DNA of 64,000 nt from Syntrophomonas sp. DTU019 (GTDB taxonomy: Bacteria; Bacillota; Syntrophomonadia; Syntrophomonadales; Syntrophomonadaceae), in contig CAJYDM010000001.1 of NCBI GenBank assembly GCA_913757435.1, forward strand, positions 186,001 to 250,000. The letters run 5' to 3'. Positions 455-39,119 of the stretch are shown here, piece after piece; position 1 is the stretch's first letter; each line of letters begins with the position of its first letter. Made by a program: the position numbers and the translations under genes. The notes under the pieces are model-generated. The model had not been told where the DNA came from. It made no database searches and saw only the letters and a program-made list of their open reading frames with translations.

Positions 455-639
455 TAAAACAGGCCGGGAACGTGGTTCCCGACTCTTCCAATATGGGCTT
501 CCACATGAAGGCCCTTTGTCGCAGGCATTGCTGCCTGTTTTACTGGCCTCCTGACGGTGGTGGGCACCGGGGCATCCGCCGAACGATTCGATAAACCTCC
601 TCGTCAACCCGCAGTATAAAACAAAGCGGGTCCAGGCGC
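455..639 (-). ncRNA. glmS ribozyme (glucosamine-6-phosphate-activated self-cleaving riboswitch)
   Basis: On the minus strand the region reads CAGCGCC at the expected cleavage site (A at 640, G1 at 639). It is followed by the conserved core GACGAGGAGGTTTATCGAA and CGGCGGATGCC at about 606-570, nearly identical to the Bacillus subtilis glmS ribozyme core. It sits directly upstream of glmS. The family binds GlcN6P as coenzyme, cleaves its own 5' end and exposes the downstream mRNA to RNase J decay. The 3' boundary is approximate and taken from the last visible paired elements before the glmS ribosome-binding site. Confidence 0.95.
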
Positions 640-644
640 TGACT

Positions 645-1994
645 TTATTGTTTGGCTACCTCTTCCACTGCTTTCTTGATATCATTGATCACTTCCTTTA
701 ACAGATAATGGTCCGGCCTGAGCCATAAGCCTGACCAGCGGTTCAGTTCCTGAAGGTCTCAACACCAGTTTGCCCCATTCCCCAACCTGGTTTCAGCATC
801 GGCCAGAGCGGCTTGCACCAGATCATGGCTTAGCACCGCTTCCTTATTCTCGATGCGCATTGACCAGTAATTGAGGATATTTCTCCATTTCCGGCCCAGT
901 TCAGACAGACTCAAACCAGTCCGTTGCATCACCTCCACCAGTTTGATTGAAGTCAACAGACCGTCTCCGGTGTTGGCATACTGTTTGAAAATAATGTGCC
1001 CCGACTGCTCGCCACCTAGCAGAGCTCCGGTTTCCACCATTTTTTCCAACACATAGCGATCCCCCACCTTGCAGCTGTCGACCCTCACATTCTCCCTCCG
1101 CAGAGCGATCTCAAAGCCGATATTGCTCATTACCGTAGCCACCACTGAGGCAGGCTTAAGAAGCTTCTGGCGGCGCATATCCAGAGCGCAGATCAGCATA
1201 ATATGATCGCCGTCAAGTTCATTGCCCTTTTCATCTATGGCAATGCAGCGGTCAGCATCACCATCATATGCGATGCCTAAATCGGCGTGGTAATGCAGCA
1301 CCGCCTTTTTCAACGGCTCGGTATGGGTGGAACCGCAACGGTCATTGATATTGATGCCATTCGGCTTGTCGCCAATGCTTATGACCCGTGCGCCCAGGCG
1401 CTGCCACAACTCTGGAGCTACATGGTAAGCCGCCCCGTTGGCACAGTCTAGAACCACTGTCATGCCCTGTAGATCCATGTTCCCGACGCAGCAGGAGCAA
1501 AGATGCTGCAAATAACTCTGGTTGGCGGCTTCCACACTGTAAACCCGGCCTACATCAGGTCCCTGCGGCCTGCTCAAGCCTTCGGTACCGTGTTGCACCA
1601 ACTCCTCAATCTTATGTTCTATCTCATCGGGTAGTTTATATCCTGCCGGGCCGAAGAATTTGATGCCATTATCTTCAACCGGGTTGTGTGATGCAGAAAT
1701 CACTATACCGCAATTGGCCTGATATTTTTCTGTCAAATAGGCCACCGCCGGAGTAGGGACTATTCCTGCGGTCAAGACGTCCGCACCGGTGGAACATATT
1801 CCCGCTAAAAGGGCGGATTCAAGCATATCCCCGGATATGCGGGTATCTTTACCTACTAAAATTCGCGGCCTTCCCGCAGGATTCTGCTGCGCCAGTATAT
1901 AGCTGCCCGCCCGCCCCAGTTTAAAGGCCAGCTCGGCTGTTAAATCCAAATTGGCGATGCCTCTGACTCCATCTGTACCGAATAAACTCCCCAC
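645..1994 (-). CDS. glmM: Phosphoglucosamine mutase, C-terminus frameshifted
   Basis: Converts glucosamine-6-phosphate to glucosamine-1-phosphate. The N-terminal part reads intact from ATG 1994 (MGSLFGTDGVRG), with the active-site serine loop ISASHNP, the metal loop DGDADR and the sugar loop GEQSGH. The frame then breaks near 772, where a run of four G should be five, and stops at 759. The lost C-terminal phosphate-binding motif RPSGTEPLVR continues in the next frame. A second break near 715 (GGCC where GGGCCC is expected) returns the tail to the frame that ends at TAA 647-645. Repairing these gives about 450 residues, the normal length. The gene is essential in relatives, so sequence error is likelier than decay. 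It lies between the FAD protein and the ribozyme. Confidence 0.93.
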
Positions 1995-9047: not shown

Positions 9048-10559
9048 ATGGATGTGAATGATGTGACAAACCGTTCTGCCAAGCCGCCGGTGGATGCAAG
9101 GAAAAAACCTTTTGGAAAGGATTCTGAAAATGGTTTAAGCAAGACCCCTCTCATCGTGGCTCTCATGCTGGCTATGTTTTTAGCGGCGATTGAGGGGACC
9201 ATTGTAACGCTGGCTATTCCCACCATGGTGAAGGATTTGCAGGGTTTTGAGCTTATCAGCCTGGTTTTTTCAGCATATTTGTTAACGTCCGCCATAGCTA
9301 CCCCCATTTACGGAAAACTGTCAGACCTATATGGAAGGAAAAATATGCTTTCCATCGGCATCATGATATTTCTGCTGGGAAGCTTTTTATGCGGGTTGGC
9401 CCAGAGTATGTATGCCCTGATTGCATTCCGGGCCCTGCAGGGGCTGGGAGCCGGCGCCATATTTACCGTGACATATACCATTATCGGAGATGTATTTACC
9501 CTGGAGGAACGGGCCAGAGTCCAGGGAAGCCTGAGTATGGTTTGGGGGATCGCCAGCCTGGCCGGTCCATTCCTGGGAGGAATCATCATCGATTTACTCT
9601 CCTGGCACTGGATCTTCTTTATTAATCTTCCCTTTGGCTTCTTATCGGTTATATTGCTGCAAAGTGCTTTACGAGAAACCTTTGAGAAGAAAAAACATGT
9701 TATCGACTTTGCCGGCGCCATTATTCTGTCGGCAGCCATGATAGTATTCTTAAATATCTTTTTATCAACGGAAAACACGCCTGCCGATCGGTCTCTTTTG
9801 AATGTCACATCCGCAGTGATTACGATTATACTATTAGGCCTTTTTTTAAAAATTGAAAGCCAAGCGCCGGAGCCCATCATGCCTTTGGACATATTTACCA
9901 AAACCAACATCCTGGTCAATTTATCGTCTTTTTTAATTGCCGCAGTGTTGATCGGCTTAAATGTTTATATGCCTATATATTTACAGAATATACTGGGTTT
10001 TACAGCGACTATATCCGGATTGGCCATGCTTCCTATGTCGCTTTCCTGGCTTATTGCCTCGATTCTGGCAGGAAAAATGATGGTGAAATACGGAGGGAAA
10101 GCAGTGGTATTAGTATCCAACGCCATTTTGCTCGTTAGCACATTGTTACTACCTGCGTTGGGCATTGATTCTTCATTATCACTGGTGCTAATAATCGTTT
10201 TTATAAGCGGTATTGCCTTTGGCGGAGCGCTTACTACTCTTACCATCATTATTCAGGATTCGGTAGATTATAGTAAAAGGGGGGCTGCCATTGCGGTGAC
10301 TTCATTGGTCCGGACGATGGGGCAAACTATAGGGATCAGCGTATTCGGCAGCATTTTAAATCTATGTATAACGAAATACTTTGTTCAGTCTGGTATCAAA
10401 GGAGTAGACCCGAGTAATTTATATAACGCCCCGATCGCTATTGAGCAAATCAGGCTTTCTCTAAATATTTCGATGCATGTCCTATTCCTTATATTCATCT
10501 TACTATCCGGCCTCTCTTTAGCTTTATCAATAGTAATGCCAAAAATAAAAGGGAGTTGA
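9048..10559 (+). CDS. MFS drug:H+ antiporter, DHA2 (14-helix) family
   Basis: Membrane efflux pump of 503 residues, the usual length for 14-helix EmrB/QacA-type transporters that expel hydrophobic drugs or dyes. Helix 1 carries AMFLAAIEGTIVTLAIPTM. The loop 2-3 signature GKLSDLYGRKNM and motif C in helix 5 (WGIASLAGPFLGGIIID) are clear. The start ATG 9048 has only a weak ribosome-binding site. It is monocistronic, with its own promoter and no TetR/MarR regulator beside it. The sequence is visibly more AT-rich than the neighbours and lies next to a decayed toxin-antitoxin pair, which is consistent with horizontal acquisition. Confidence 0.92.
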   Translation: MDVNDVTNRSAKPPVDARKKPFGKDSENGLSKTPLIVALMLAMFLAAIEGTIVTLAIPTMVKDLQGFELISLVFSAYLLTSAIATPIYGKLSDLYGRKNMLSIGIMIFLLGSFLCGLAQSMYALIAFRALQGLGAGAIFTVTYTIIGDVFTLEERARVQGSLSMVWGIASLAGPFLGGIIIDLLSWHWIFFINLPFGFLSVILLQSALRETFEKKKHVIDFAGAIILSAAMIVFLNIFLSTENTPADRSLLNVTSAVITIILLGLFLKIESQAPEPIMPLDIFTKTNILVNLSSFLIAAVLIGLNVYMPIYLQNILGFTATISGLAMLPMSLSWLIASILAGKMMVKYGGKAVVLVSNAILLVSTLLLPALGIDSSLSLVLIIVFISGIAFGGALTTLTIIIQDSVDYSKRGAAIAVTSLVRTMGQTIGISVFGSILNLCITKYFVQSGIKGVDPSNLYNAPIAIEQIRLSLNISMHVLFLIFILLSGLSLALSIVMPKIKGS

Positions 10560-38390: not shown

Positions 38391-38621
38391 TGTCCATTCT
38401 AGCATATTTTCGTATCCCTGTTTAATTAATCAGTGCAGGTGCTGCGCGATACTGCCGCATCCTGAAAAGAGTGTATAAAGCTATATTTGGCGAGCGGGAT
38501 ATTTTGGTTTATTGCCAATAGTAGTAAAATAAGATTAGTATTGCCTGTCTAAAACTATTGAAAGGAGGGTAGGAGAACAACTTTGATGTTTGTGGGGACT
38601 TAAGAAAAGGGTGAAAGTTGA

Positions 38622-39080
38622 GTGAGAGATTCATATGTAGAATGTGCCAGTTGTGAGGTATTTGGATTCTGCACTCAGACTGAGTACGAATGCCAAGCCT
38701 ACTACGCAGGTTTCGGCTGGGAACAGATAAAAGAACCCCCCAGCTGCACAACCTGCTCCGTCAGTATGTGTAGCCAGACTGCCCAGGAGTGCCATGCCTA
38801 TAAAGATATGAACGGCGTTGGCCAGGTGGTTTTTGGCGATGCTGACGATCAGCAAAACCAGTTCCACAAACTACCTGCCAACCTGGGTTTGATGAACTGG
38901 TTCACAGGCGTTATAGAAAGGATCAGTATCGGCGATGTTATGGCCTTAGTAACCATTCGCTGCGGTGATCAGCGTTTGACATCCATGCTTTCATTGCAAA
39001 AGTTTAACGAGATGCAGTGCAAGATCGGAGACACCATCTCGGTTGCTATCAAGGCGGTTAATGTTGTCCTGATGCGCTAA
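38622..39080 (+). CDS. Cysteine-rich protein with C-terminal Mop/TOBE (molbindin-like) domain
   Basis: 152 residues from GTG 38622; AAGGGTGA lies upstream. The N-terminal half carries two similar Cys sets (CASCEVFGFC..C at residues 8-24 and CTTCSVSMC..C at 42-57). This is a likely Fe-S or zinc-binding duplication. The C-terminal part (NWFTGVIERISIGDVMALVTI to IKAVNVVLM; about residues 92-151) matches a Mop domain, which binds molybdate or tungstate oxyanions. The combination is unusual. There is no modABC or molybdoenzyme gene nearby. A strong hairpin follows. The function is unknown; metal storage or sensing is an inference. Confidence 0.75.
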   Translation: MRDSYVECASCEVFGFCTQTEYECQAYYAGFGWEQIKEPPSCTTCSVSMCSQTAQECHAYKDMNGVGQVVFGDADDQQNQFHKLPANLGLMNWFTGVIERISIGDVMALVTIRCGDQRLTSMLSLQKFNEMQCKIGDTISVAIKAVNVVLMR

Positions 39081-39085
39081 TTATA

Positions 39086-39119
39086 TATGCCCCCTAGAAC
39101 ATGTCTAGGGGGCATATTT
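39086..39119. terminator. Hairpin terminator between the Mop protein and stress protein genes
   Basis: TATGCCCCCTAGA at 39086-39098 pairs perfectly with TCTAGGGGGCATA at 39104-39116. The T tract on the plus strand is short (ATTTC). The position between convergent genes suggests use in both directions. Confidence 0.78.

Follow-up and report, generated by a model that had tools for sequence, protein, structure and literature searches.

Gene, barrel and cysteine knuckles

Within the window, a stretch of 64,000 nucleotides from Syntrophomonas sp. DTU019, we analyzed a gene at 38622-39080 on the forward strand that encodes a Cys4-Cys4-Mop protein of 152 amino acids from a GTG start codon. The open reading frame confirmed the coordinates, strand and length given in an earlier note on this DNA, and three congeners (G001, G002 and G003) carry a gene of equal length that also begins with GTG. 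The gene stands alone and is flanked by neighbours on the opposite strand; a VUT transporter lies upstream, and universal stress proteins, DUF1646, CobU and an ABC/FecCD (BtuCD-like) transporter lie downstream. Directly 3' of the stop codon, a GC-rich inverted repeat (gccccctaga / tctagggggc, 39089-39113) was read from the sequence as a possible terminator without a long T tail; a terminator scan did not include it among its predictions. On the upstream side, an alignment of the window with the three congeners (A8) revealed a conserved stretch at 38519-38569 (+), made up of a TAGTAGTA-n-AATA box and GAAAGGAGG. The latter is common to all four sequences, lies at 38560-38568, about 53 nt 5' of the start codon, and is followed in the window by a five-codon ORF beginning with ATG; it could be a leader or regulatory element. 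A Moco/Tuco riboswitch was searched for 5' of the gene with Rfam and was not found. The sole Rfam match in the window at gathering score was a glmS ribozyme at 497-651 (-), with 84.9 bits.

The C-terminal part, residues 88-151 (38883-39074, +), forms a Mop/TOBE barrel. In the Pfam scan, PF03459 (TOBE) matched residues 92-148 with 33.7 bits, over its cut-off of 22.3, and in the NCBIfam scan TIGR00638 (Mop) reached 31.9 bits, below its 55-bit cut-off. The AF2 model of the barrel had a pLDDT of about 78-86 over residues 91-140, and the top PDB matches found with it by Foldseek were MopII of C. pasteurianum (1gug; E 2.9e-4, TMt 0.78), Tub of E. limosum (9beb) and Mop of S. ovata (1fr3). The Mop domain that the earlier note had seen at the C-terminus was thus recovered by both profile and structure. 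Scores varied in Cys-fused relatives: PF03459 gave 27.7 bits in G038 (over the cut-off), 17.8 in G024 (under it) and no match at E 0.1 in G026, while TIGR00638 gave 23.5, 39.3 and 26.2 bits in three of four relatives and no match in the other. Mop/Tub molbindins resemble residues 88-151 in both fold and sequence, but the window protein differs from them by its extra cysteine-rich N-terminal half of 87 residues and by falling below the TIGR00638 cut-off. Among solved structures, the best sequence match of the Mop half was ModG (1h9j, E 9.7e-9). Unlike ModG/ModE-type proteins, with which it shares the TOBE domain, the window protein has a single TOBE, and neither a second one nor a helix-turn-helix was found with Pfam or NCBIfam.

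The N-terminal half contains two four-cysteine knuckles, C8-x2-C11-x5-C17-x6-C24 (38643-38693, +) and C42-x2-C45-x4-C50-x6-C57 (38745-38792, +). Two similar four-cysteine sets, both with an x4 spacing, had been described before; both sets exist and are homologous, but x4 is right for the second only, the first having x5. Profile A6, which comprises 16 first or single knuckles without any second repeat, matched the first knuckle at E 1.5e-17, with the window copy itself being one of its 16 rows, and the second at E 1.2e-3. The same profile found the second repeat in all eight two-repeat proteins identified (E 2.6e-7 to 3.2e-3, per genome). Since A6 detects the second repeats and all eight cysteines are kept in the three congeners (78-82% identity), the cysteine sets are more than chance. 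Ligands one to three are invariant in 16/16 rows of A6, the fourth being Cys in 13 rows and His in 3, while all four cysteines are kept in 8/8 second knuckles, which gives a family consensus of C-x2-C-x(4-6)-C-x6-(C or H). The exchange of Cys for His at the fourth position suits a metal ligand, and from it we infer one Zn2+ per knuckle. Each knuckle would hold one metal ion, most likely Zn2+, with an Fe-S center being possible. AF2 modelled the N-terminal half of the window protein with low confidence (pLDDT about 39-56) and residues 1-30 of a one-repeat relative at 58-68; the fourth ligand was carried on a helix, also with low confidence.

No Pfam or NCBIfam model covers the N-terminal half. 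The best Pfam match was an ANCHR-like B-box at E 0.089, and no Pfam model reached its cut-off in any of the 16 single knuckles in A6, the best being DUF5651 at E 0.015 in one row. DUF5651 also matched the whole of a relative consisting of the Cys half alone (G068) at E 0.0064. Both models were rejected as homes of the Cys half, because the matches were weak, single and not common to the family. A PDB search with the knuckle profile returned one match, at E 0.092. With the C-terminus inside the TOBE/Mop superfamily and no known family recovered for the whole protein, the combination put forward in the earlier note stood; the Long-Tub/Mop class described below, which is loosely defined by length, would nevertheless take the protein in.

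Distribution and origin of the fusion

We searched for the architecture at increasing taxonomic range. In a search of 61 genomes (its own and 60 relatives), 29 genomes matched at E 0.001, most in the Mop half only; matches over the whole length came from the three congeners at 77-81% identity and, at 41% identity, from G024. We then ran a profile built from one-repeat members (A3) against 63 genomes of the order, a set that also comprised all genomes of the class under study, and read the resulting ORFs. This uncovered the Cys-Mop fusion in 17 of the 63 genomes, with two knuckles in eight (its own, G001, G002, G003, G024, G064, G065 and G066) and one knuckle in nine (G007, G021, G023, G027, G033, G036, G038, G040 and G026, the last with divergent Cys spacing). 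Profile A6 matched 18 of the 63 at E below 1e-12, missing G026 and adding G067 and G068, which encode a knuckle protein without Mop. By eye, no Mop remnant was found 3' of these two Cys-only genes in the three forward frames of about 0.5-0.6 kb. Weaker A6 matches, one each in G041, G042, G045, G071 and G073 and a second one in G064 (E 9.9e-4 to 0.039), were 15-21 positions long and were taken as chance.

Among 398 genomes of the phylum, nine gave a match to the knuckle profile A2 at E below 1e-16, and every one of these belongs to the order. There was no convincing match outside the order in this sample; a match in G213 (E 0.005) contained stops and was taken as chance. A scan of a contig collection with a degenerate motif found six loci, all titled Syntrophomonadaceae, Syntrophomonas or HGW-Firmicutes-15 and including Syntrophomonas wolfei subsp. 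methylbutyratica; this motif would miss some members, so absence elsewhere is not proved by it. With the window protein as query, the contig collection, from which near genomes may be left out, gave 22 pattern matches and no relative, and tblastn against a plasmid collection gave no match. The Cys-Mop architecture is real and conserved in fatty-acid-degrading syntrophic bacteria, in which Mo/W- and Se-dependent electron disposal is central.

We constructed a maximum-likelihood tree of 42 Mop domains, comprising the 17 Cys-fused domains, 13 from UGA-bearing genes described below and 12 others. All 17 Cys-fused barrels were grouped on one side of a single branch (support 99/98) with a length of 1.25 changes per site, in a tree that is based on few columns and carries a long-branch warning. 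As they form one clade on a long stem, a single origin of the fusion appears likely, and the long stem is consistent with a shifted constraint on the barrel.

The earlier note knew of no described family with this combination. We did not find a Cys-rich module joined to TOBE in the literature searched, outside which subscription papers largely fall, and it is absent from the accessible portions of PMC11980592, PMC4324140, PMC1794560, PMC13188914, PMC9312934 and PMC5029168. The fusion therefore adds to the molbindins a conserved domain architecture that is apparently undescribed.

Oxyanion site, gene neighbourhoods and function

We compared the barrels with the oxyanion sites of Tub, in which Ser4, Ser40 and Lys60 are the side-chain ligands of the type-2 site, Arg6 makes a backbone contact and the type-1 site is built from backbone, according to the available part of PMC11980592. 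The equivalent of Lys60, Lys144 in the window protein (codon 39051-39053, +), is Lys in 17/17 family members, and the Asn of the SARN motif is also kept as in Mop/Tub molbindins. At the position of Ser40, represented here by Ser124 (codon 38991-38993, +), the family has Pro in 12, Ser in 4 (window copy included) and Thr in 1. In contrast to Mop/Tub molbindins, the Ser4 position is Gly and the position of the SARN Arg (Arg6) is hydrophobic (Met/Val/Ile) in every one of the 17 Cys-fused barrels. Five other Mops of the order, aligned alongside, have Gly in four and Ser in one at the Ser4 position, Arg in four and Ala in one at Arg6, Thr in all five at Ser40, and Lys in four and Asp in one at Lys60. 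The Gly at Ser4 is thus not diagnostic, as it is shared by four of these five. The alignment suggests that the barrels of most relatives have lost part of the usual oxyanion site and that the window copy, which has Gly at Ser4 but retains the other two side-chain ligands compared, Ser124 and Lys144, is among the less eroded members. Because the type-1 site is built from backbone, the family may still bind oxyanions. The other TOBE protein of the same genome, of 70 amino acids on contig 6 (L001 1480-1692, -), has Asp at the position of the site Lys and may likewise be no ordinary molbindin.

The site residues bear on whether the protein is a tungstate or molybdate store of the Long-Tub/Mop kind, in which the knuckles would do no more than stabilise the protein or store a second metal (Zn or Fe-S) and which would feed tungsto- and molybdo-enzymes such as formate dehydrogenases and aldehyde oxidoreductases. 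The Long-Tub/Mop class was defined by length from gut genomes (>75 aa, a single TOBE and no other recognised domain) and predicted by its authors to serve in storage (Shao et al. 2025, PMC11980592). This definition would take in the window protein, with its 152 amino acids and TOBE alone over the Pfam cut-off; the class as described in the accessible text of that paper comes without mention of a Cys module, unlike the window protein. Storage would also fit the universal Lys60 equivalent, the Ser retained in the window copy and three others, and the presence of clients, with molybdopterin oxidoreductases in 61/63 genomes of the order, AOR-family enzymes in 52/63, and both in the window's own genome. 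However, the Pro at the Ser40 position removes both the side chain and the backbone NH, the Arg6 position is hydrophobic throughout, Cys-only proteins exist, and 16 of the 17 fusion genomes have at least one further Mop-like match that might serve as the store (the exception, G021, is 67% complete). Almost every genome of the order has such clients, including those that lack the Cys-Mop protein, so Mo/W enzymes were useless as a predictor of the protein and do not separate the readings. Given the altered site residues, we regard Long-Tub/Mop storage as doubtful for this family, though it ranks only slightly behind the reading that we favour. The joint storage of a metal cluster and molybdate or tungstate was not supported in the form proposed in the earlier note, in view of the Pro substitutions, the hydrophobic residues at the SARN Arg and the two genomes with a Cys half free of Mop; the sensing role that the note gave as an alternative may still apply. 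When a longer protein contains a TOBE domain, its site residues should be checked before it is taken for a store.

We favour, over a bulk molybdate/tungstate store and at low confidence, with a probability of about 0.35, an adaptor or sensor that binds metal and is built on a molbindin scaffold, which becomes more likely than a store as the barrels of most relatives are without part of the oxyanion site. Here, a diverged Mop/TOBE barrel in the C-terminal half would assemble like other molbindins and display the one or two copies of the four-ligand knuckle in the N-terminal half, each binding one metal ion, most likely Zn2+. In syntrophic bacteria that oxidise fatty acids, the protein would then serve as an adaptor or sensor responsive to metal or redox state, reusing the Mop barrel where its usual oxyanion site is eroded.

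We then analyzed the genomic neighbourhoods. In five genomes (G007, G021, G023, G027 and G036), the Cys-Mop gene has a PGA_cap gene before it and, immediately after it on the same strand, the gene of a CBS-PAS-sigma54-HTH activator; one PGA_cap protein and two of these five activators were scanned with Pfam, and the rest were assigned by sequence likeness. Genes assigned by likeness to a thiolase and a 3-hydroxyacyl-CoA dehydrogenase come next after the activator in all five. A promoter-like -24/-12 site was found by motif scan between activator and thiolase, on the operon strand, in 5/5 genomes (L037 4300 +, L040 6400 -, L042 9180 +, L043 5455 - and L045 11355 +). The scan covered 19 loci and gave 25 sites in all, compared to a rate of 0.48 per 10 kb in base-shuffled sequence, both strands counted. 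No sigma-54 site was found within 2 kb 5' of the Cys-Mop gene on its strand in the loci scanned, and the single -24/-12 match in the window is inside the Cys-Mop gene on the opposite strand. With the sites placed between activator and thiolase, the probable target of the activator is the beta-oxidation operon rather than the Cys-Mop gene. The knuckle gene of G033, G067 and G068 closes a run of beta-oxidation genes, the copies in G067 and G068 being the Cys-only proteins from the genus of G033 (L091 5510-5722, -; L092 6055-6204, +), and in G026 it lies about 800 bases after such a run. The link to beta-oxidation was not seen in 10 of the 19 knuckle genomes (four of the window genus, G024, G064-G066, G038 and G040) and may therefore be local to some genera. 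Orthology of the neighbouring activator was also sought in the window's own genome, where three paralogs at 57-64% identity allowed no inference.

An adaptor or sensor would, in some lineages, probably inform or partner the adjoining CBS-PAS-sigma-54 activator. A more elaborate version, which we consider quite unlikely, is a sensor with two inputs, in which the knuckles would respond to Zn or to the redox state and a second signal would be sensed by a molbindin oligomer whose specificity has shifted to a different oxyanion or small ligand. If true, such a sensor beside these activators would make the choice of beta-oxidation operon depend on metal or redox supply.

The neighbourhoods also bear on two other explanations. 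The protein could be a scaffold or assembly factor with a barrel that has lost its ligand, and its Cys modules would serve to dock beta-oxidation enzymes or a partner in electron transfer. The degenerate oxyanion site and the several copies, Cys-only versions among them, at the ends of beta-oxidation runs would be expected of such a protein; the retention of Ser and Lys in the window copy and three others would not, and no neighbour is common to all genera in the neighbourhoods read, which leaves this explanation unlikely. Least probable of all, in our view, is a thiol-based carrier, in which the Cys set would take up Mo or W as a thiometalate or cluster and hand it to the barrel or to cofactor insertion. 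This idea draws on the joining of a Cys-rich module to a Mo/W-type barrel, the anaerobic, sulfide-rich life style of these bacteria and a putative Se/S-carrier gene that lies, in G021, about 2.7 kb upstream of the Cys-Mop gene (PF11823, 51.2 bits; L042 2884-3477, +). Against it, the C/H knuckle resembles a single-ion site, and inspection of the neighbourhoods by eye turned up no moa, moe, mod or tup genes.

Molbindins with in-frame UGA codons

Some Mop genes contained in-frame UGA codons. Two UGA codons 14 codons apart occur in 16 Mops, of which 14 come from 13 genomes of the order and the other two from G137 and G205, one from each (pattern a: 13 loci, L112-L124; L039 at about 9978-10184, -; L145; L146). 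In the phylum sample, four Mops have two UGA codons four codons apart (L136, L137, L139 and L147) and three have one UGA (L138, L143 and L144). A hairpin 3' of the last UGA, CGUC[CGUGAU]GACG, has the same loop and a four-pair stem in 22 of the 23 UGA-bearing Mops, with one pair of the stem broken in the remaining one (L123). It was found in 0 of 11 UGA-free rows representing 10 genes (L019 and L148 are one gene), while a further UGA-free row, L025, could not be placed in the comparison. Most UGA-bearing and most UGA-free Mops alike encode a TSVMT stretch at this place, and the hairpin region of pattern a shows hardly any variation at third codon positions (12 of 13 rows used). The hairpin fits the bacterial SECIS model, as given in the accessible part of PMC13188914, in loop size, G at loop position two, a stem of at least four pairs and a distance of 23-26 nt.

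Local folding 3' of the UGA codons was not significant, with z-scores near zero, and the lowest-energy folds did not show the common hairpin in every row; the case for the hairpin is made by base conservation and by the comparison with UGA-free genes. The first UGA of pattern a (L112-L124) precedes the second by 42 nt, which puts it beyond the reach of the common hairpin under the usual model, and inspection showed no clear hairpin belonging to it. None of the UGA-free Mops read has Cys at the UGA positions. The selenoprotein table of PMC13188914, with 119 families, is without a TOBE or Mop entry, and a 2006 survey gave ten selenoproteins for S. wolfei, with no molbindin among them in the accessible text (PMC1794560). 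The UGA-bearing molbindins are probably an unlisted selenoprotein family, which, if true, would link Se with Mo/W handling.
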